Part shown: positions 5,537-59,827 of the stretch, piece by piece
Position numbering within the stretch: the stretch's first letter is position 1
Layout of the letters: each line of letters opens with the position of its first letter
Assembly: GCA_021808525.1 (NCBI GenBank)
Contig: JAKBBK010000008.1
Span: 1-64,000 of the forward strand
DNA: 64,000 bases
From: Pseudomonadota bacterium
GTDB lineage: Bacteria; Pseudomonadota; Gammaproteobacteria; Burkholderiales; Burkholderiaceae_C
Direction: 5' to 3'
Program-made: the position numbers and the translations under genes
The notes under the pieces: generated by a model
Seen by the model: only the letters and a program-made list of their open reading frames with translations
Databases searched by the model: none
Told to the model about the DNA's origin: nothing

Positions 5537-6463
5537 TCAGCCCGGATCGCGCAGCAGGGTGGAGCGTCCGAACAGGCTTTGCAGCAATTCCACCAGGGCC
5601 TCGGCGCTGCGGTTGCGCAGGTCCAGCGCCGGGTTGAGTTCGACGACGTCGATCGAGGCCACGCAGCCACGGTCGGCCAGCATTTCCATGCACAACTGGG
5701 CCTCGCGCCAGGTCGGGCCGCCGCGCACGGTGGTGGCGACCCCCGGCGCGGTGTCCGGGTCGAGGAAGTCCACGTCCAGGCTCAGGTGCACGTGGGTGCG
5801 CGCATCGATGCCCTCGAGCATGCGGCGCATCACGGTGCGCATGCCTTGTTCGTCGATGGCGCGCATGTCGTCCACGTGGACCTGATGCTGGCGCAGCAGG
5901 CGGCGTTCCAGCTCGTCCACGCTGCGCACTCCCAGCAGGCGCAACTGCCGGGCTTGCAGCACCGGGCGGGCGGTGCTCAGGCCCAGCAGCTGCTCGGGCC
6001 CCAGGCCGCACAGGCAGGCCAGCGGCATGCCGTGCAGATTGCCGCTGGGCGTGGTCTCGGAGGTGTTGAAGTCGGCGTGGGCGTCCAGCCACAGCACGCG
6101 CAGCTCGCGCCGTTCGGCCTCGCAATGCGCGGCCACGGCGGCGATGGAGCCGAAGGCCAGGCAATGGTCTCCGCCCAGCAGCATCGGAAGCTCGCCCGCG
6201 CGCAGGGCCGCGGCCACCGCATCGCGCACCGCGCGGTTCCATTGCACCACCTGCTCCAGGTGGCGCCAGCCGTCGCGCGCGCTCTCCCAGGGGTTGCCCG
6301 GGCCGGCCAGGTTGCCGGCGTCATGCACCCGCAGCCCCAGCGCTTGCAGCGCCGCTGCCAGGCCCGCCACGCGCAGCGCCTCCGGGCCCATGGAGGCTCC
6401 CCGCACGCCAGCGCCGATGTCGGTGGGGGCACCGATCAGCCGGACGACGCGCTGCAGGCTCAT
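5537..6463 (-). CDS. arginase/ureohydrolase family enzyme
   Basis: A 308-residue ureohydrolase with the complete binuclear manganese motif set: GGDHCLAFGS, WLDAHADFNT and SLDVDFLDP. Length and the N-terminal LIGAPTDIGAGVRGASMGPEA region fit arginase (arginine to ornithine and urea) better than agmatinase, but substrate cannot be settled from motifs. The start MSLQRVV at 6463 is preferred over a 26-residue extension that matches nothing. Its position just upstream of the NtrC-type amtB promoter fits nitrogen scavenging. Confidence 0.85.
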   Translation of the reverse strand: MSLQRVVRLIGAPTDIGAGVRGASMGPEALRVAGLAAALQALGLRVHDAGNLAGPGNPWESARDGWRHLEQVVQWNRAVRDAVAAALRAGELPMLLGGDHCLAFGSIAAVAAHCEAERRELRVLWLDAHADFNTSETTPSGNLHGMPLACLCGLGPEQLLGLSTARPVLQARQLRLLGVRSVDELERRLLRQHQVHVDDMRAIDEQGMRTVMRRMLEGIDARTHVHLSLDVDFLDPDTAPGVATTVRGGPTWREAQLCMEMLADRGCVASIDVVELNPALDLRNRSAEALVELLQSLFGRSTLLRDPG

Positions 6464-6473
6464 GGGATGCGGC

Positions 6474-7133
6474 TCAGCCGGCGCGGTCCGGTTCGCCCAG
6501 CAGATGCTGCAGGTCCAGCGCGAAGCCCTCGAGCTGCGCATCCAGCGCGCGCGCGCGCTTGCCCAGGGCGTTGTAGGCGAGCACCGCGGGGATGGCCACC
6601 GCCAGCCCGGCGGCGGTCATGACCAGGGTGTCGCCCACCGGCCCCGCGATCTTGTCCACCCCCACCTGCTGGAGTGCCGAAATCGTGCCCAGCGCGTGGT
6701 AGATGCCCCAGACCGTGCCGAACAGGCCCACGAAGGGGGCGGTGCTGCCCACGCTGGCCAGCAGCACGTGGCCGGAGTGCAGGCGCCGGCTGGCCGCATC
6801 GAGGGCATCGCGCAATTCGCGGCGCACGCGGTCGGCCTGCGCCTGCCAGGCATGGCCCTCGGGCTGCTCCAGCTGGCGGCTGCGCAGCGCCAGCGCGGCC
6901 GCGGGGCCGTCGGGATCCGCGGCCAGCGCGGCCGCGGCGGCCTGGGCGCGCGAGGGCGCCGCCCAGAACGCGGCGATGGCGCGCGGCACGCTGCGCGCGC
7001 TGCGCCACAGCAGTGCGCTTTTCCAGAAAATGACAAACCAGCTGGCCATCGACATGGCCAGCAGCACCGCGGCCACCGTCTGCATCAGCGCATCGCCCTG
7101 CAGCGCGGAGGTCGGGGCCATGGGCATGGGCAT
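6474..7133 (-). CDS. MotA/TolQ/ExbB-type proton channel protein
   Basis: A 219-residue inner-membrane protein with an N-terminal membrane helix, a cytoplasmic insert, and the two C-terminal helices of the ExbB/TolQ family (VGSTAPFVGLFGTVWGIYHAL and GDTLVMTAAGLAVAIPAVLAYN). These proteins normally pair with an ExbD/TolR partner to use proton flow for energising TonB or Tol. No exbD or tonB is adjacent; instead it follows dapB by 22 bp, an arrangement known in Burkholderiales. The start may be any of three closely spaced ATGs in MPMPM. Confidence 0.85.
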   Translation of the reverse strand: MPMPMAPTSALQGDALMQTVAAVLLAMSMASWFVIFWKSALLWRSARSVPRAIAAFWAAPSRAQAAAAALAADPDGPAAALALRSRQLEQPEGHAWQAQADRVRRELRDALDAASRRLHSGHVLLASVGSTAPFVGLFGTVWGIYHALGTISALQQVGVDKIAGPVGDTLVMTAAGLAVAIPAVLAYNALGKRARALDAQLEGFALDLQHLLGEPDRAG

Positions 7134-7155
7134 GGGTCGCCGGGTCGCGGCGCGT

Positions 7156-7977
7156 TCAGGCCTTCAGCCCGAGCACGTCGTGCATGTCGTACAGGCCCGG
7201 CGCGCGGCCGGCCAGGAAGCGCACCGCGCGCAGGCTGCCTTCGGCGTAGGTGGCGCGGCTGCTGGACTTGTGGGTGATCTCGATGCGCTCGCCGGTGCCG
7301 GCGAACAGCACGGTGTGGTCGCCCACGATGTCGCCCCCGCGCACCACCGAGAATCCGATGGAGCCCGGCTCGCGCTCGCCGGTATGACCATGGCGCGACC
7401 AGACGGCGTCGCGCGCAAGATCGCGCCCGGCGGCGCGTGCCACGGCCTCGCCCATTTTCAGCGCGGTGCCCGAGGGCGCGTCGACCTTGTGCCTGTGGTG
7501 GGCCTCGATGATCTCGATGTCGAAGCCGCTGGACAGCGCGCGCCCGGCCTGCTCCAGCAGCTTGAGCACGACGTTCACGCCCACGCTCATGTTCGGAGAC
7601 AGCACGATGGGAATGCGCGCGGCCGCCCGCTCGATGCGCCGCAGGCCCTCGGCGTCGAATCCGGTGGTGCCGATGACCATGGACAGCCCCATGCTCTCGC
7701 ACACGTCCAGGTGCTCCAGCGTGGCTTGCGGGCGGGTGAAGTCGATCAGGCATCGCGCCTCGCGCAGGCCCTGCCGCGGGTCGGCCTGCACCAGCACACC
7801 GGTGCGCAGGCCCAGCGCCGTGCCGGCGTCCTGCCCGAGCAGCGCCGAGCCGGCGCGAGCCAGCGCCGCGCCGAGCTCGCAATCGGGCGCGGCGGCGATG
7901 GCCTCGAGCAGCGCGCGGCCCATGCGGCCGCCGCAGCCGGCGATGGCCACGCGATGCTTCGGCTGGCCTGCAGTCAT
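7156..7977 (-). CDS. dapB: 4-hydroxy-tetrahydrodipicolinate reductase DapB
   Basis: A 273-residue enzyme of lysine and diaminopimelate synthesis that reduces the product of DapA with NAD(P)H. Rossmann motif [11 protein letters not shown] at the N-terminus and the catalytic motif [16 protein letters not shown]. The ORF track extends upstream without homology; the ATG at 7977 overlaps the bamE stop as ATGA, which fixes the start and suggests coupling with bamE. Confidence 0.95.
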
Positions 7978-8618
7978 GGCGTCTGTTGTCCGGAAGAGCC
8001 GGGCAGCACGCTCTGGTCGGCCTGCCGCGCCAGGCCCTGCAGCTGGTCGATTTCCGACTGCGGCGCCACGACGGTCAGGGGGCCGGCCTCGGAGGCGGCC
8101 TTGGCCGGCGGCCGCTCGGCGAGTTTCTTTTTCGCCGCCGCGACCTCGGCCTGCAATTGTTCGCGGCTCAGCGAGCGCGTCTTGCCACCGTTGTGCAAGG
8201 TGTTGATCTGCGCGACGAACTGGTCTTCCGAGGGCAGCGGGTCGCCCTGCGTGCGCAGGAGATGGCCGTCCTTGTCGAAAAACACCGTGAAGCGTCGCAC
8301 GATCGGTGCGTGGTAGCCCTGGCGCAGGCTGAACACGTATTCCCAGCGGTCGCCGTGGAAGATGTCCTGCAGCAACGGGGTGCCCAGGATCTCGCGCACC
8401 TGCGCCTTGCTCATGCCGGGCTTGAGCTCCGCGGCCATTTCGCGGGACACGAAGTTGCCCTGGATCACGTCGAATCGATAGGGCTTGAACAGGCTGGTGA
8501 GGTCGCGCTGTTGCGTCTGCGTGCTGCAGGCGCCCAGACCCAGCGCGACCAGCAACCCCAGCGCACTTCCCAGCACGCTGCGCGCTGGGCGTTTTTCCAT
8601 CAGGAACGACAGGAGCAT
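7974..8618 (-). CDS. bamE: outer-membrane assembly lipoprotein BamE (SmpA/OmlA)
   Basis: About 214 residues, with a lipoprotein signal whose lipobox is LGLGAC and a BamE domain ([28 protein letters not shown]). BamE is a lipoprotein of the BamABCDE complex that inserts outer-membrane beta-barrels. The C-terminal about 90 residues (Lys/Ala-rich helix, then a Gln/Ser tail) go beyond the E. coli protein. Two ATGs, 8618 and 8600, are possible and neither has a clear Shine-Dalgarno. The gene is divergent from fur. Confidence 0.9.
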
Positions 8619-8665
8619 CGGAGAATGGTCGAGGACGCATGCGCGAGCACGCGGATTCGGCGCAG

Positions 8666-8680
8666 GACCCCCGAGGGGTC
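8666..8680. repeat. short palindrome in the bamE leader
   Basis: GACCCC-CGA-GGGGTC is a perfect 6-bp inverted repeat with a 3-base spacer, located between the divergent bamE and fur starts. It could form a small hairpin in the bamE leader or be a protein site. Its function is not known. Confidence 0.35.
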
Positions 8681-8685
8681 TTGGC

Positions 8686-8714
8686 TTGGGCGCCGGGATG
8701 GGCTGAACTATCAT
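8686..8714 (+). promoter_or_regulatory. likely sigma-70 promoter of fur
   Basis: TTGGGC and TATCAT are separated by exactly 17 bp, placing the transcript start about 20 bp before the fur ATG. This is the best match in the divergent region. I see no convincing Fur box over it. Confidence 0.45.
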
Positions 8715-8740
8715 GCTGATTCTAAACATCCCCCACTTCC

Positions 8741-9208
8741 ATGACGGTCTCGAACGCCCAAGGCCTGCGCAGCACGGGGTTGAAGGTCACCCAGCCGCGC
8801 CTGAAGATCCTGGAAATCTTCCAGAAGGGCGCGATGCGCCACATGACGGCCGAGGACGTGTATCGCGAGCTGCTCAACGACCAGACGCGCGACATCGGCC
8901 TGGCCACGGTCTACCGCGTGCTCACCCAGTTCGAGCAGGCGGGCATCCTGTCGCGCACCCATTTCGAGTCCGGCAAGGCGATGTTCGAGATCAACGAGGG
9001 CAAGCATCACGACCACCTGCTGTGCCTGGACTGCGGCAGGGTCGAGGAATTCGTGGATGCCGAGATCGAGCGCCGCCAGCACAACATCGCGGCCGAACGC
9101 GGCTTCGAGCTGCAGGAGCACTCGCTGGCCCTGTATGCCAGTTGCAGGCGCGAAGCCTGTCCCCATCGCCCGGCGGCAGGCAGCCCCGAGGCCGCGCCGC
9201 AGGGTTGA
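8741..9208 (+). CDS. fur: ferric uptake regulator Fur
   Basis: A 155-residue iron-responsive repressor. N-terminal winged helix with TQPRLKILEIF and the recognition-helix region LATVYRVLTQFEQAGIL, then the metal-binding segment HHDHLLCLDCG and a C-terminal CRREAC cysteine pair, so both regulatory and structural zinc ligands are present. Divergent from bamE-dapB-exbB, a conserved betaproteobacterial arrangement. The C-terminal tail is slightly longer than in E. coli Fur. Confidence 0.95.
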   Translation: MTVSNAQGLRSTGLKVTQPRLKILEIFQKGAMRHMTAEDVYRELLNDQTRDIGLATVYRVLTQFEQAGILSRTHFESGKAMFEINEGKHHDHLLCLDCGRVEEFVDAEIERRQHNIAAERGFELQEHSLALYASCRREACPHRPAAGSPEAAPQG

Positions 9209-9244
9209 GGCGCGGGCCCCCGGGAGCGGGGTCGGGGGGCATGG

Positions 9245-10201
9245 TCAGTCGTCGCCGCCTTCGAGCATGGCCAGGCGCTGGCGGTCCTGGAATTCCTTGA
9301 AGGTATCGATGCCCCGCAGTTGCAGGATGGTGTTGCGCACCGCCGCTTCCACCAGCACAGCGAGGTTGCGCCCGGCCTCCACGGGGATCAGCACCTTGCG
9401 GATGGCCACGCCGAGCACGTCCTGGCGCACGTTGCCGGTGGGAAGTCGCTCGAAATCCTGGTCCTGCGTGTCGCGACGCACCAGGTGCACGATCAGGCGC
9501 AGGCGCATCTTGCGGCGCACCGCCGTCTCGCCGAAGATGGTGCGGATGTCCAGGATTCCGATTCCCCGCACTTCCAGCAGGTTCTGCAGCAGCGGCGGGC
9601 AATGTCCCTCGATGGTGCTCTGGGTCACCCGCGACAGCTCCACGCAGTCGTCGGCCACCAGGCCATGGCCTCGGGAAATCAGCTCCAGGCCGAGTTCGCT
9701 CTTGCCCAGGCCGGACTCCCCGGTGATCAGCACGCCCAGGCCGAGGATGTCCATGAACACCCCGTGCAGGGTCGTGCGGTTGGCGAACAGCTTGGACAGG
9801 TAGGCCCGCAGCACGTCGATGACGAAAGCCGCCGGCTCGTCGGTGACGAACACCGGGATGCCGGCGTCCTCGCAGGTCTTGAGCAGCGCGGGAGGCGCCT
9901 CCTGGCCGTCGGCGATCACCAGGGCCGGCGGGCCCAGGCCGACCACCCTGCGCACCCGTCTGCCGCTGTCGGCCTCGTCGGCGTGCATCAGGTAGTGCAC
10001 CTCGCGCCAGCCGAGGATCTGGACCCGGTAGGGGTGGATGTAGTTGAGATAGCCCACCAGATCCGCGCCCGAGGTGGCGCCCTGCACGGCGGCGTCATCG
10101 AAGCGTCGCTCGGGATTGCGCTGCCCCGCCACCCAGCGCCACTTGAGCAGCGGGGTATTGGCTTCGAACAGGCGGTCGGCGGAAAGGGTCGCGGCTTTCA
10201 A
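9245..10201 (-). CDS. hprK: HPr kinase/phosphorylase HprK
   Basis: A 318-residue bifunctional enzyme that phosphorylates or dephosphorylates HPr on serine. The N-terminal HprK domain is followed by the kinase domain with P-loop GESGLGKS, the following VADDCVEL region and the family signature [15 protein letters not shown]. The ORF opens with TTG ([12 protein letters not shown]); this position fits family N-termini and no ATG is near. It follows ptsN by 20 bp in the conserved hpf-ptsN-hprK order. Confidence 0.93.
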
Positions 10202-10221
10202 GGGAGCTCGGGCGCCGCGGC

Positions 10222-10692
10222 TCAGGCGGCGTTCTGCAAGGTCGCCCAGTCGTGGACCAGGCGGTGCAGCGCGCCGGAGTCCGGCGCGTCGAGCATGCGC
10301 TGGCGGAAGCCGTCGTCGGACAGCATCTCGGCGATCACCGACAGCAGCTCGAGGTGCTTGCCCGAGGCGGCCTCGGGAACCAGAAGGAACACCAGCAGCT
10401 GCACGGGCAGGTTGTCCGGCGCCTCGAAGGGGACCGGGGCGGCCAGGCGCACCAGCGCGGCGCTGGGCTGCTTGAGCCCCTTGATGCGTCCGTGCGGTAT
10501 GGCCACCCCCTGCCCCAGGCCGGTGGAGCCCAGGCGCTCGCGCGCGAACAGGTTGTCGGTGACGACCGAGCGGGCCAGGCCGAGGTGGTTCTCGAACAGC
10601 AGACCCGCGAACTCGAAGGCGCGCTTCTTGCTGCTGGCCTCGACGTTCACCTGAACATGGGCCAGCGGCAGGATCTGGGCCAGGGGATTCAT
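10222..10692 (-). CDS. ptsN: nitrogen PTS enzyme IIA (PtsN)
   Basis: A 156-residue EIIA-Ntr regulatory phosphoprotein. The phosphorylated histidine is in [13 protein letters not shown] and the helical core in [23 protein letters not shown] fits the family. It receives phosphate from NPr/HPr and adjusts potassium, nitrogen and carbon functions rather than transporting sugar. It sits between hpf and hprK; rpoN, its usual neighbour, is 3 kb away because two genes intervene. Confidence 0.95.
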
Positions 10693-10885
10693 GGCATGCG
10701 AACCGATGCGGAGGTGGTTGGGGGCCCCGGGGCCCGGGCGCGCCGCCGTCGCGTGGATCGATCGGCGGCAGGGTGTCCGGGGGCCGGCACGGCCCCGCGA
10801 ATGCGCGAAAGCCGCAGTGTATCGGCTGTGTGAGTGTCTTGGGAAAACCCGATGAGCCGGGTGTGTGTCATGGGAGCGGGGATGC

Positions 10886-10909
10886 GACCCGCGGCGGGCG
10901 CCGCGGGTC
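10886..10909 (-). repeat. strong hairpin just after hpf
   Basis: GACCCGCGGC-GGGC-GCCGCGGGTC is a perfect 10-bp stem with a 4-base loop, starting 10 bp beyond the hpf stop. There is no following T-run, so it is not a standard intrinsic terminator. It may stabilise the hpf 3' end or reduce read-through into ptsN. Confidence 0.45.
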
Positions 10910-10918
10910 GAGGCTGGC

Positions 10919-11254
10919 TCAGGAGGTGGCCAGGTACTTGCCCGGCACGGCCTGGTGGGCCTGGGTGCGGTTCTTGTGCTCGACCACCTGCCGGTCGATC
11001 TTGTCGACGAGCTCGTCGATGGCGGCGTACAGATCCTGGTCCTGGCTCTCGGCGAAGATGTTGCGCCCCTTGAGTTGAAGATTGCACTCGGCCTTCTGGC
11101 GGCGCTCCTTTTCCTTCTGCTTTTCCACCGACAACAGTACGTTGACGCTGATGAGCTGGTCCGAGTGCCGCGTGATGCGGTGCAACTTGGACTCCACGTA
11201 GCTGCGAAGGGCCGGCGTGACTTCCATGTGATGGCCGCTGATGGTCAGGTTCAT
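10919..11254 (-). CDS. hpf: ribosome hibernation promoting factor HPF
   Basis: A 111-residue protein of the HPF/YfiA family, which binds the small subunit A/P sites and inactivates ribosomes in resting cells. Signature parts are [17 protein letters not shown], the central [17 protein letters not shown] and [17 protein letters not shown]. Length fits the short form that promotes 100S dimers with RMF, though RMF is not seen here. The ATG at 11254 has a perfect AGGAGGG Shine-Dalgarno; the ORF-track extension of 49 residues is spurious. Confidence 0.95.
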
Positions 11255-53731: not shown

Positions 53732-53972
53732 CGGTGGGGCCAGGGATCGGCGGGGCGGGGTTGGGGTTGCCTGGGGCGGGCACATGCCCTGGGTGCACCT
53801 TAGGGCGGATCGGGCACGCCGGCAGCGCGGCGTGCGGGATCCCTGGTTCCCGACCGGGATGCGTGGGCAAGGAGCCGTGCCGCGTGCCCGGGTTGGCGGC
53901 GATGGTGGCCGGGGCGCAAGGCCTATATGCTGCGCACATGCCTTCCCAGCCGCGGCGGTGCCGCTTCGAGCC

Positions 53973-54284
53973 ATGATGTACAAGTTTCGTTCCCGAGCCG
54001 ATTCCGACCTGTTCATGAACCAGGGGCCCGCCGAGCGCATCCTGGGCATCATCGGCAAGGCGCCGGGCCCGCAGGGCATCATCGAGCCGGGCGACATGGC
54101 GCGAGCCATCGCCGCCCTGCAGGCGGCGGTGGACGAGGACGAAGCCGCGCGTGGCGGCGGTGCCACCGAGGGCGCTGCGCCGGCGTCGGGTCAGGCCGTC
54201 ACGCTGCGCCAGCGCGCCTGGCCCTTCGTGCAACTGCTCAAGCGCAGCCTGGAAGCCGACACTCCGGTGGTGTGGGGCGTTTGA
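53973..54284 (+). CDS. DUF1840 domain protein
   Basis: A 103-residue cytosolic protein matching the betaproteobacterial DUF1840 family: MYKFRSRADSDLFMNQGPAERILGIIGK and GIIEPGDMARAIAALQAAV, with a C-terminal WPFVQLLKRS. Function unknown. Either of two adjacent ATGs (53973, 53976) may be used. TATATG lies about 50 bp upstream. Divergent from cydA. Confidence 0.85.
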   Translation: MMYKFRSRADSDLFMNQGPAERILGIIGKAPGPQGIIEPGDMARAIAALQAAVDEDEAARGGGATEGAAPASGQAVTLRQRAWPFVQLLKRSLEADTPVVWGV

Positions 54285-55948
54285 ATCCCTCCCCGTCCCC
54301 GCCGTCGCCCGCGCCGGCTGCGCTGAGCCCGGAGCAGCGCCGCGTGCTCGTGGCCTCGGCGCTGGGCACGGTGTTCGAGTGGTACGACTTCTATCTCTAC
54401 GGCTCCCTGGCCGGGATCATCGGCGAGGAGTTCTTCGCCGGGCTGGACCGGGGTTCGGCCTTCATCTTCGCGCTGCTGGCCTTCGCCTCGGGTTTCCTGG
54501 TGCGCCCCTTCGGCGCGCTGCTGTTCGGCAGGCTGGGCGACCTCATCGGGCGCAAGTACACCTTTCTGGTGACCATCCTGTTGATGGGCCTGTCGACCTT
54601 CATCGCGGGCCTGCTGCCCGGCTATGCCAGCATCGGCGTGGCAGCGCCCATGATCCTGGTGGCGCTGCGCCTGCTGCAGGGCCTGGCGCTGGGCGGGGAG
54701 TACGGCGGGGCCGCCACCTACGTGGGGGAATACGCGCCGCGCCAGTCCCGCGGGGCCTACACCTCGTGGCTGCAGACCACTGCCACGCTGGGCCTGCTGT
54801 TCTCCCTGCTGGTCAACGTGGGGCTGCGCCGTCTGCTGGGGGACCAGGCCTTCGCCGCCTGGGGCTGGCGCCTGCCTTTCCTGGCCTCCAGCGCGCTGCT
54901 GGCGGTGTCGGTCTGGATGCGTCTGCGCCTGAACGAGTCACCCGCCTTCGTGCGCATCCGGCGCGCGGGGCGCACGTCCAAGGCGCCGTTGTCGGAGGCC
55001 CTGGGGCGCGGACCCAATTTCCGGCGGGTGATGGTGGCGCTGTTCGGCATGACGGCGGGCCAGGGGGTGATCTGGTACACGGGGCAGTTCTATGTGCTGG
55101 TGTTCCTGACCCACACGCTCAAGGTCGACGGCGGACTGGCCGGCGTGCTCATCGGCATCTCGCTGGTGCTGGCGATCCCGCTGTTCTGGCTGTTCGGGCG
55201 ACTGTCGGATCGCGTGGGCCGGCGTCCGGTGATGCTGTCGGGCTGCCTGCTGGCGGCGCTGGGCTACTTTCCGATGTTCCACGCCCTCACGGCCGCCGCC
55301 AACCCCATGCTGGCGCGGGCCATGGCCAGTCACCCGGTGGTGCTGCTGGCCGATCCCGCCGATTGCTCCTTTCCCCTGCGCTCCGAGGGGGGCAGGCCCT
55401 TCACCCATTCCTGCGACATCGCCAAGCAGGCGCTGAGCGACGTGGCGGTCGATTACCGGCGGCGCGACGCGCGGGGCACGGCGCGCATCGAGGTCGGCGG
55501 GCGCAGCGTGGCCTCCTTCAACGCGAGCGGCATGTCCGAGGTCGAACTGGCGCAGCGCCAGCAAGCCCTGCGACAGGCCTTGCGCCAGGCGGTGAGCGCC
55601 GCCGGCTACCCGCGACAGGCCGACCCGGGGCAGGTGAACCGCCCGCTGGTGGTGCTGATCCTGACCCTGCTGGTGGCCGACGTGGCGCTGGTCTACGGGC
55701 CCATCGCGGCCAGCCTGGTGGAGCTGTTTCCCACCCGCATCCGCTACACCTCGATGGGCCTGCCGTACAACCTGGGGAACGGTTGGTTCGGAGGCCTGGT
55801 GCCGACGGTGGCCTTCGCGCTGGTGGCGCACGACGGTGGGATCTACCACGGCCTGTGGTATCCGGTGATCGTGGCCGCGGGGAGTTTCCTGGTCGGCGTG
55901 CTGCTGCTGCCCGAGACCCGTGGCACCGACCTGTGCGCTGGCGACTGA
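54281..55948 (+). CDS. MFS transporter, metabolite:H+ symporter type
   Basis: About 555 residues with 12 predicted helices. TVFEWYDFYLYG and GRLGDLIGRKYTF are MHS-family signatures; the second half has GRLSDRVGRRPVML. A roughly 115-residue soluble insert (about 338-452) between the mid C-half helices carries two cysteines (DPADCSFP, HSCDIAK). TTG start at 54281 overlaps the DUF1840 stop (TTGA), but GTG further in is possible. Substrate unknown. Confidence 0.85.
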   Translation: MNPSPSPPSPAPAALSPEQRRVLVASALGTVFEWYDFYLYGSLAGIIGEEFFAGLDRGSAFIFALLAFASGFLVRPFGALLFGRLGDLIGRKYTFLVTILLMGLSTFIAGLLPGYASIGVAAPMILVALRLLQGLALGGEYGGAATYVGEYAPRQSRGAYTSWLQTTATLGLLFSLLVNVGLRRLLGDQAFAAWGWRLPFLASSALLAVSVWMRLRLNESPAFVRIRRAGRTSKAPLSEALGRGPNFRRVMVALFGMTAGQGVIWYTGQFYVLVFLTHTLKVDGGLAGVLIGISLVLAIPLFWLFGRLSDRVGRRPVMLSGCLLAALGYFPMFHALTAAANPMLARAMASHPVVLLADPADCSFPLRSEGGRPFTHSCDIAKQALSDVAVDYRRRDARGTARIEVGGRSVASFNASGMSEVELAQRQQALRQALRQAVSAAGYPRQADPGQVNRPLVVLILTLLVADVALVYGPIAASLVELFPTRIRYTSMGLPYNLGNGWFGGLVPTVAFALVAHDGGIYHGLWYPVIVAAGSFLVGVLLLPETRGTDLCAGD

Positions 55949-57933: not shown

Positions 57934-59151
57934 TCAGGGAGCGATGGCGTTCAGGGGGCCGGTGCCCGCGCTGCTGGACATCCCATTGAACACGTAGGCG
58001 ATGGTCTTGCCGAAGAAGAAGGGCAGCCCCAGGTCCACCGTGGTGGTGCTGGGCGAGTAGATGCCGATATCGTTGAAGGCCACCAGGTTCGGGCTGAGGT
58101 TCAGCGAGGTGGGGGACGCCAGCTCCACCGACGAGCTGTAGGAGCCGCTGCTGCCTGTTCCGTTGCCCGTCAGCACGATGGGAAGCTGCTGCGCCGAGCT
58201 GGGCGAGAAGTAGTCGGTCGAGCTGTTGTAGGAGACGTTGAAGGGTGCCACGTACAGGCTCGAGCCGCTGTCGAGGTAGGAGGCCGCGTAGCTGGTGCCG
58301 CCGACCTGCACCGTCAGGTGGCCCAGGCTGTCGAGCGGAAGGACCGTATAGCCGCTGATCGAGTTGTCGGTTTGCGTGCCGACGCCGAAGGTGACGGTGC
58401 CCGAAGCCGTGGCCGCGCCGCTGGCCGGAACCGCCGGAAGCTGGAACACGATGCCGTTGGTGTCGGAACTGGTGAAGAAGGCCACCGGGTTGGACACCAT
58501 CGCCGAGGCGGCCGGCTCCGAGCTCAGCTGGGTGCAGGTGCTCGAGCTGCAGCTGAAATAGGCCCCGTTGTCGGCGACCATGGGACCGATGCCCAGGATC
58601 CCATTCGAGTGGAGCACCGAGACGCTGCCTGCGTCGGTGGGATCCTTGGAGGTGCAGGCCGACGGAGCCGAGGGCAGCCCCGTGGCGTCGATGATCTCGA
58701 TGGGAATCGAGGAGGTGGTTTCCCCGGCCAGCTTGACCACGGCATGGGCGACGCCGCCCCAGGTGTAGCCGCTGCCGAATACCGCGCATTCCGCCAGGTC
58801 CTGGCCGGACGAGGTGGTGTCCAGGGGCAGGTTCACCGAGCTGAGTGCGCTTTGCAGCAGGCGCAGGCCGTAGGAGCCGGTGTCCACGGTGACATGGGAG
58901 ATGGTCTGGCAGTTGTTCGAGGCGTCGCACACGGTCACGGTGGCGTAGGGAACGTCGGTCGTCACCAGGGTGGGGTCGATGGCGGTCACGTCGGGGTTCT
59001 GCTCCACCGTGATGGCCAACTGGTTGCCCGTGGTCGTGGCGCTGCTGGTGGACGAGGTGGAGCCACCTCCGCCTCCGCAGGCGGCCAGGAGCAGTGGCAA
59101 GCCCAGCAAGGTCGTGTACAGGAAGCTGCGGATGCACGGGGAGGAATTCAT
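57934..59151 (-). CDS. DUF3443 lipoprotein, pepsin-like two-lobe aspartic peptidase candidate
   Basis: A 405-residue lipoprotein (lipobox LLAAC) of the DUF3443 family, with a Ser/Thr/Gly linker and seven cysteines. It contains TVDTGSYGLRL at about 88-98 and YLDSGSSLYVAP at about 292-303, like the two active-site motifs of pepsins, plus FGSGYTWGG (flap-like), GILGIGP and LGLPFFFGKTIAYVF. I infer a bilobal aspartic protease fold; function is otherwise unknown. Its neighbour is DUF2844. Confidence 0.85.
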   Translation of the reverse strand: MNSSPCIRSFLYTTLLGLPLLLAACGGGGGSTSSTSSATTTGNQLAITVEQNPDVTAIDPTLVTTDVPYATVTVCDASNNCQTISHVTVDTGSYGLRLLQSALSSVNLPLDTTSSGQDLAECAVFGSGYTWGGVAHAVVKLAGETTSSIPIEIIDATGLPSAPSACTSKDPTDAGSVSVLHSNGILGIGPMVADNGAYFSCSSSTCTQLSSEPAASAMVSNPVAFFTSSDTNGIVFQLPAVPASGAATASGTVTFGVGTQTDNSISGYTVLPLDSLGHLTVQVGGTSYAASYLDSGSSLYVAPFNVSYNSSTDYFSPSSAQQLPIVLTGNGTGSSGSYSSSVELASPTSLNLSPNLVAFNDIGIYSPSTTTVDLGLPFFFGKTIAYVFNGMSSSAGTGPLNAIAP

Positions 59152-59317
59152 GAGTGGACTCGTTCAGCGTGGGCCCGCGCCGCCGCGGCGAGGCCTCGGC
59201 GGGCGTGCTGGGTCGGCGGACGCCTCGGCGCGTGGCCCGGTGCGAGGGGGGCTGTCGTCGCGGCGTACCGCGGGGGCGACCAGCGTGTCCGGGCGGGCGA
59301 AGGCGCTCGGGCTGGGA

Positions 59318-59827
59318 TCAGGGGGTGACGTTCAGACGGGCCAGCTCGACGCCGGCAGGAACCAGTGCCGGCACATAGGCCGAGCCCGCGAATGCGCGCA
59401 TATGCCCGCCCAGGTACGCCACGATGCTCGAGCTGCGAACCTCGACCGGGGCATCGAGCGACAGCGAGGGATGGGTCTGCCTCCAGGCCACGTAGGCCGG
59501 GAAATAGTCCGCGTAGAGCCTTTGCAGGTCGGGGACCATCGGCCCGCTCCAGGAAACGGCAAAGATCCTGCCGGAAGCCCCGGAGTACTCGTGCACCAGT
59601 ACCTGGCCCGGCGTGAGCACCACCGTGTCGGTGACCCTGGCGCCGCTGCCCACTGCGGCGGCCACGCGCGCCTGGGATTTCCAGGCACCGTCGCGCAGCG
59701 CGGTGGAGGTCGAGCCGCCGAGCGATGCCCAGGCGCAGGGCGCGAGAGGCACCGCGGCGGCCAGGGCGAACACGGCGCCGAGCCAGACGCGCGCTCGCAG
59801 GGGGGGTGGGGCGGTGAGCGGATGCAT
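59318..59827 (-). CDS. DUF2844 exported protein
   Basis: A 169-residue protein with a signal peptide (FALAAAVPLAPCAWA) and the DUF2844 pattern SLGGSTSTALRDG, VHEYSGASGRIFAVSWSGPMVPDLQRL and SSIVAYLGGHMRAF. DUF2844 and DUF3443 genes occur together in Burkholderiales, as here with a 166 bp gap. AGGAG precedes the ATG. Function unknown. Confidence 0.85.
   Translation of the reverse strand: MHPLTAPPPLRARVWLGAVFALAAAVPLAPCAWASLGGSTSTALRDGAWKSQARVAAAVGSGARVTDTVVLTPGQVLVHEYSGASGRIFAVSWSGPMVPDLQRLYADYFPAYVAWRQTHPSLSLDAPVEVRSSSIVAYLGGHMRAFAGSAYVPALVPAGVELARLNVTP

Follow-up and report, generated by a model that had tools for sequence, protein, structure and literature searches.

Two adjacent genes on the minus strand of the window (the whole stretch of DNA that we analysed, 64,000 nucleotides) encode a DUF2844 protein and, after a gap of 166 bases, a downstream DUF3443 protein (Table 1). 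Both assignments lie well above the curated Pfam cut-offs: the 405-aa product matches PF11925 over residues 41-402 (E 1.9e-83, 280.9 bits against a cut-off of 25), and the 169-aa product matches PF11005 (E 7.9e-28, 97.4 bits against 22.4). The open-access literature that we searched contained no mention of either family; literature matches to "PF11005" proved to be Plasmodium gene numbers and not DUF2844. The same genome carries a second cluster (locus L022, contig C23:28000-46000 of genome G000), where three DUF3443 and two DUF2844 genes stand in tandem on one strand at 5806-10955, and the organism would therefore have four putative enzymes. Elsewhere in the window, at 53927-55948 on the plus strand, lies a gene for an MHS-type MFS transporter with an apparent insertion of ~100 residues between membrane segments.

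A single scan of species genomes gave 458 DUF3443 relatives, of which 80 were taken as loci; the query was a closer set of 7 sequences, less divergent than the 17-sequence alignment. The alignment used for conservation comprises 98 proteins from 399 genomes of the phylum and from the species-genome scan. DUF3443 is carried by 48 of the 399 genomes sampled from the order.

Table 1. Features of the DUF2844 and DUF3443 genes and their products, in window coordinates
Feature	Position	Strand	Evidence
DUF2844, 169 aa, secreted putative partner, gene directly upstream of DUF3443	59318..59827	-	PF11005; adjacency, co-occurrence
DUF2844: conserved L36-G37 after predicted signal-peptidase I site between A34 and S35	59717..59722	-	L in 79/82, G in 80/82
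DUF3443 lipoprotein, predicted pepsin fold, putative aspartic peptidase, 405 aa	57934..59151	-	PF11925, AlphaFold2, Foldseek
Lipobox L22-A-A-C25, Gly at +2	59077..59088	-	Sequence
N-lobe catalytic motif D90-T-G-S93	58873..58884	-	D90 in 97/98; paired by hhalign with pepsin D32
Flap segment F125-GSGYTW-G132	58756..58779	-	Aligned with pepsin flap YGTGSMTG; F125 at the place of pepsin Tyr75
N-lobe psi-loop motif I185-L-G187	58591..58599	-	G187 in 98/98; aligned with pepsin DGILGLA
C-lobe catalytic motif D294-S-G-S297	58261..58272	-	D294 in 98/98; paired with pepsin D215
C-lobe closing segment VDLGLPFFFG (372-381)	58009..58038	-	G375 and G381 in 98/98; equivalent of pepsin WILGDVFIRQYYTVF in a low-confidence hhalign alignment (-mact 0)

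A lipoprotein with a predicted pepsin fold

DUF3443 had been described as a lipoprotein, and its LAAC lipobox, which ends at C25, is a conserved feature of the family. Of 84 DUF3443 relatives, 75 satisfied a strict automatic lipobox rule, with Gly at +2 in 71 of these 75, and six of the nine that failed it have an evident x-x-x-C-G/S lipobox by eye. Under the E. coli Lol rule, Gly after the lipobox Cys leads to sorting to the outer membrane; since DUF3443 has Gly at +2, its lipobox suggests that it is probably anchored there.

AlphaFold2, run on the window protein with 16 relatives, gave a best model of five with pLDDT 87.5 and pTM 0.85, in which only residues 1-39 (signal and linker) fall under pLDDT 50. 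A Foldseek search of the PDB with this model returned 509 matches at E<=1e-3, and the best 50 of the 509 were all family A1 aspartic proteases, each with probability 1.00. The top match was rhizopuspepsin (E 9.8e-13), and plasmepsin II, BACE, pepsin, endothiapepsin and renin were among the matches listed. The alignments extend over ~400 columns and therefore span both lobes. The search is selective, because the DUF2844 model put through the same search gave nothing at E<=1e-3. Against A1 structures the TM-scores, normalised to the target, are moderate at 0.46-0.62 (rmsd 6-10 A); DUF3443 therefore appears divergent, with a different lobe arrangement or insertions. As modelled, DUF3443 very likely has the pepsin fold, and the bilobal pepsin-type architecture that fold prediction was expected to reveal is what the model displays.

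Putative catalytic motifs and distance from family A1

The two Asp-Thr/Ser-Gly-Ser motifs noted near residues 90 and 294 were found as D90TGS and D294SGS. They are the sole D[ST]G[ST] motifs of the 405-aa protein and lie 204 residues apart. FGSGYTWG (125-132), NGILGIG (183-189), GTVTFGVG (251-258) and LGLPFFFGK (374-382) are also present as originally described. Both aspartates, whose conservation across DUF3443 had been named as a check on the idea, are kept almost without exception (Table 1). Around the dyad, S93 is found in 97/98 proteins and G92 and G296 in 96/98 each, while G95, R97 and five cysteines (C75, C81, C122, C201 and C206) are invariant (each 98/98). Within the flap, F125 is present in 95/98 (Tyr in 3/98), W131 in 96/98 and G132 in 98/98. 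The N-lobe contains the hydrophobic-hydrophobic-Gly motif of the psi-loop, I185-L186-G187; the first hydrophobic position before D90 is loose, residue 88 often being Gln or Thr. For the C-lobe, G375 is preceded mostly by Asp-(Trp/Leu), and F379-F380-G381 would fit the hydrophobic-hydrophobic-Gly pattern. Near-invariance of D90, S93 and D294 is what would be expected for an active dyad, unlike the situation in dead homologues.

The window DUF3443 protein has no match to the Pfam profile PF00026 up to E 10, and no PF00026 match was found in three genomes that bear DUF3443 (G000, G003 and G170). Direct searches of the PDB yielded nothing useful: the best match of the window protein by phmmer was a phytase (E 0.7), and that of a 66-member DUF3443 profile was MMP-9 (E 3). 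For comparison of alignments, family A1 was represented by seven sequences, namely pepsin (checked against PDB 1f34), four further sequences and two bacterial ones, all of which match PF00026. Standard hhalign gave 5% probability and placed D90 on D215. A re-run with match columns of less than 50% gaps, and with alternatives allowed, gave a collinear alignment at 20% probability, pairing D90 with D32, F125-GSG with Y75-GTG, NGILGIG with DGILGLA, and D294 with D215. It scores 33.4 (31.4 with one alternative only), and none of 200 column shuffles exceeded 24.6. When blocks were shuffled with DTGS left intact, 3 of 200 runs attained 33.4; the motif therefore carries most of the signal, and similarity outside it is modest. 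Collinearity having appeared only in the re-run, we do not use it as main support; the suggested HMM-HMM comparison with A1 bore out the order of the motifs in the re-run, but weakly.

Judged by sequence, DUF3443 is a distinct family of predicted pepsin fold and not a member of A1. Most of the computed features would have it work as pepsins do, but we do not file it in A1 because it has no PF00026 match and because the flap Tyr75 and Trp39 are both replaced. Of the original prediction of a bilobal A1 peptidase, then, the fold and the order of the dyad stand and the assignment to A1 by sequence falls.

Matches to other aspartic protease profiles are scattered. The aspartyl peptidase-like PE-PGRS_C profile (PF20729) is matched by one of 66 DUF3443 relatives (E 1.5e-4) and not by the window protein, and Asp_protease_2 is weakly matched by a single DUF3443 member (E 5.3e-4). 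A bridge between families is seen at L111, where residues ~640-719 match DUF3443 (E 3.9e-4) and residues 633-727 match Asp_protease_2 above cut-off (E 8.8e-10).

We also observed several other proteins. The L111 product (L111:3-6512, minus strand; genome G137, contig C33) is a very large secreted protein with an open frame of ~4118 aa, in which Asp_protease_2 domains, one of them overlapping the weak DUF3443 match, accompany Ig-like domains and PD40 repeats. L108:1229-3271 and L109:390-2399, both on the plus strand, encode lipoproteins of ~670-680 aa with four D(S/T)G motifs each, which apparently belong to two successive bilobal domains of aspartic-protease-like type; the Pfam matches of these lipoproteins are sub-threshold only, and their third motif is VDTGSVGLRVLES, as in DUF3443. 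The 664-aa lipoprotein of L110:1828-3819 (minus strand) has VDTGSVGLRVLES near its N-terminus and seemingly another domain in its C-terminal part, and matched nothing in Pfam at E 1 or below. L103 and L104 encode PF00026-positive bacterial proteins of the same phylum (E 6e-20 and 1e-18), the latter matching pepsin at E 3e-11.

DUF2844, the probable partner

In the phylum set of 399 genomes, the ten with DUF3443 above cut-off were also the ten with DUF2844 above cut-off. Within the order, DUF2844 occurs in 44 of 399 genomes, and all 44 are among the 48 with DUF3443. The four exceptions comprise two genomes with DUF3443 fragments only (G578 and G662), one with DUF2844 next door (G633), and G471, in which DUF3443 is present and no DUF2844 was found. 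Copy numbers of both families should be read as minima, since the genome scans scored few candidates per genome. An apparent orphan DUF2844 in G322 was rejected, as its genes adjoin DUF3443 genes unscored in the first scan. At 77 of the 81 loci the two genes are neighbours, with DUF2844 almost always immediately upstream and on the same strand, and the pair has no third conserved neighbour across genera, only a genus-level context in the Duganella/Rugamonas group. A mirror-tree correlation between the families (r 0.91, 75 loci), computed without a species-tree control, was set aside as evidence. The partnership first suggested by a single co-location is therefore stronger than that, with near-perfect co-occurrence and adjacency, and the two proteins very probably form a functional pair.

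DUF2844 has a classical signal peptide, and in nearly all relatives AxA immediately precedes (A/T/S)LG. The cleavage site just before the near-invariant LG would therefore fix the mature N-terminus, as expected if that end has a function. In the AlphaFold2 model (pLDDT 82.2, pTM 0.72), a single long helix lies between strands. Fold searches with it gave no match at E<=1e-3 in either the PDB or the viral library BFVD; likenesses to roadblock-like and RseB folds, at E 0.1-1, were rejected as noise.

From genetic linkage, to take DUF2844 for an inhibitor or a chaperone is a guess somewhat better than to take it for a substrate. We think it unlikely that DUF3443 has DUF2844 as its substrate and processes it after export. 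A precedent is the surface aspartic protease PecA of mycobacteria, which cleaves PE_PGRS proteins and itself (PMC6819658), and a one-to-one gene pair would suit a dedicated substrate. The prediction for DUF2844, however, is a compact folded domain whose core residues are conserved all along and which has no evident cleavage linker, and signal peptidase would already produce its conserved mature N-terminus.

Proposed function and comparison with known systems

Taken together, we regard DUF3443 as a likely extracytoplasmic, bilobal, pepsin-fold aspartic endopeptidase with DUF2844 as its dedicated partner, and the conserved dyad makes it quite probable that the peptidase is active. The lipoprotein signal would be cleaved at C25, leaving the protein anchored, most likely in the outer membrane, with a Gly/Ser-rich linker of ~15 residues joining the anchor to the two lobes. 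Each lobe would offer one aspartate (D90 or D294) on a psi-loop, and the pair would activate water so that a peptide bond is cut beneath the hairpin flap F125-G132. For DUF2844, exported by signal peptidase I, the most likely role would be that of a dedicated inhibitor or folding chaperone, and it might act as a zymogen prosegment supplied in trans. The fullest version, in which a separate prosegment-like inhibitor of new fold holds or folds the outer-membrane lipoprotein, with the (A/T/S)LG N-terminus in the cleft, is speculative and rather doubtful; it would make the pair a bacterial branch of the pepsins hidden under a DUF, controlled in trans and without propeptide control of its own.

A DUF3443 protein that kept the pepsin fold without cutting, as a binding or scaffold protein akin to the A1 TAXi xylanase inhibitors or pregnancy-associated glycoproteins, would accommodate the replacement of the flap Tyr75 by Phe125 and of Trp39 by Arg97. 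We consider this quite unlikely, however, given that nearly all 98 relatives retain the two aspartates together with the adjoining Ser/Thr residues, whereas dead A1 homologues lose aspartates. Phe75 is, moreover, a common A1 replacement found in other members, no Phe75 homologue having then been characterised, and a Tyr75Phe mutant was reported as weakened in activity but still active (Rawlings and Bateman, PMC2761423). It is very improbable that DUF3443 is of the single-lobe, dimeric retropepsin type, as in RimB/RloA: a few members weakly match Asp_protease_2 and gag-asp_proteas, but both motifs lie 204 residues apart on one chain, the model matches full-length bilobal A1 chains, and the prediction strongly disfavours this rival. 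That the motifs arose by chance in a lipoprotein of a different fold, rich in Ser, Gly and Thr, is scarcely credible. Although the low-complexity composition yields at least two D[ST]G[ST] motifs in 145 of 20,000 shuffles, and the paired motifs judged in one DUF3443 sequence by itself are no more than suggestive, chance is excluded because the aspartates are kept across 98 relatives, and together with the fold match this refutes it at the level of prediction.

If DUF3443 is indeed a pepsin-fold peptidase paired with DUF2844, the bacterial range of pepsin-type proteases would be much wider and would reach the cell envelope, and DUF3443 would bear on the question of an ancient origin of bilobal pepsins as against their acquisition from eukaryotes. 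Two unstudied domain families would gain a concrete, testable function and each other as partner.

DUF3443 resembles family A1 (pepsin, rhizopuspepsin, plasmepsin, BACE; PF00026) in its predicted bilobal fold, in the order of its two D[ST]G[ST] motifs, in a flap hairpin, a GILG segment and a closing segment at the C-terminus that can be aligned, and in disulphide-type cysteines and a predicted place outside the cytoplasm. It differs from A1 in that its cysteines lie elsewhere, it has a lipoprotein anchor, and it has a separate partner gene instead of a recognised prosegment. Where pepsin reads D32-T-G-S-S-N-L-W39, DUF3443 reads D90-T-G-S-Y-G-L-R97, with an invariant Arg in place of Trp39, and the usual flap Tyr75 is Phe125. 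Bacterial A1 homologues have Asp at the Thr218 position (PMC2761423, PMC4814920), whereas DUF3443 has Ser297.

Long held to be eukaryotic, pepsin-type proteases were later described in seven bacterial species, where they are reported to be cytoplasmic (PMC2761423). Like shewasins A and D, DUF3443 is bacterial and, as predicted, pepsin-type. The shewasins lack a signal peptide, shewasin D is mainly cytoplasmic, and activity needs an intact Asp dyad (PMC2761423, PMC4814920); unlike them, DUF3443 is a lipoprotein with several conserved cysteines and a DUF2844 partner.

The C-terminal domain of PecA/PE_PGRS35 and PE_PGRS16 (PF20729; PDB 4EHC) is similar to DUF3443 in its surface association, its aspartic protease fold and its DTG and DSG motifs. 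PecA, however, belongs to another phylum, and its export uses type VII secretion and a PE domain where DUF3443 has a lipoprotein signal; we know of no DUF2844 partner for it. Proteases of the retropepsin type, such as RimB and RloA, carry one catalytic motif per chain, whereas the DUF3443 chain carries two. DUF3443, as predicted, nevertheless shares with RimB/RloA (PMC12239564) the character of a bacterial aspartic protease type, and RloA, too, has a signal peptide.
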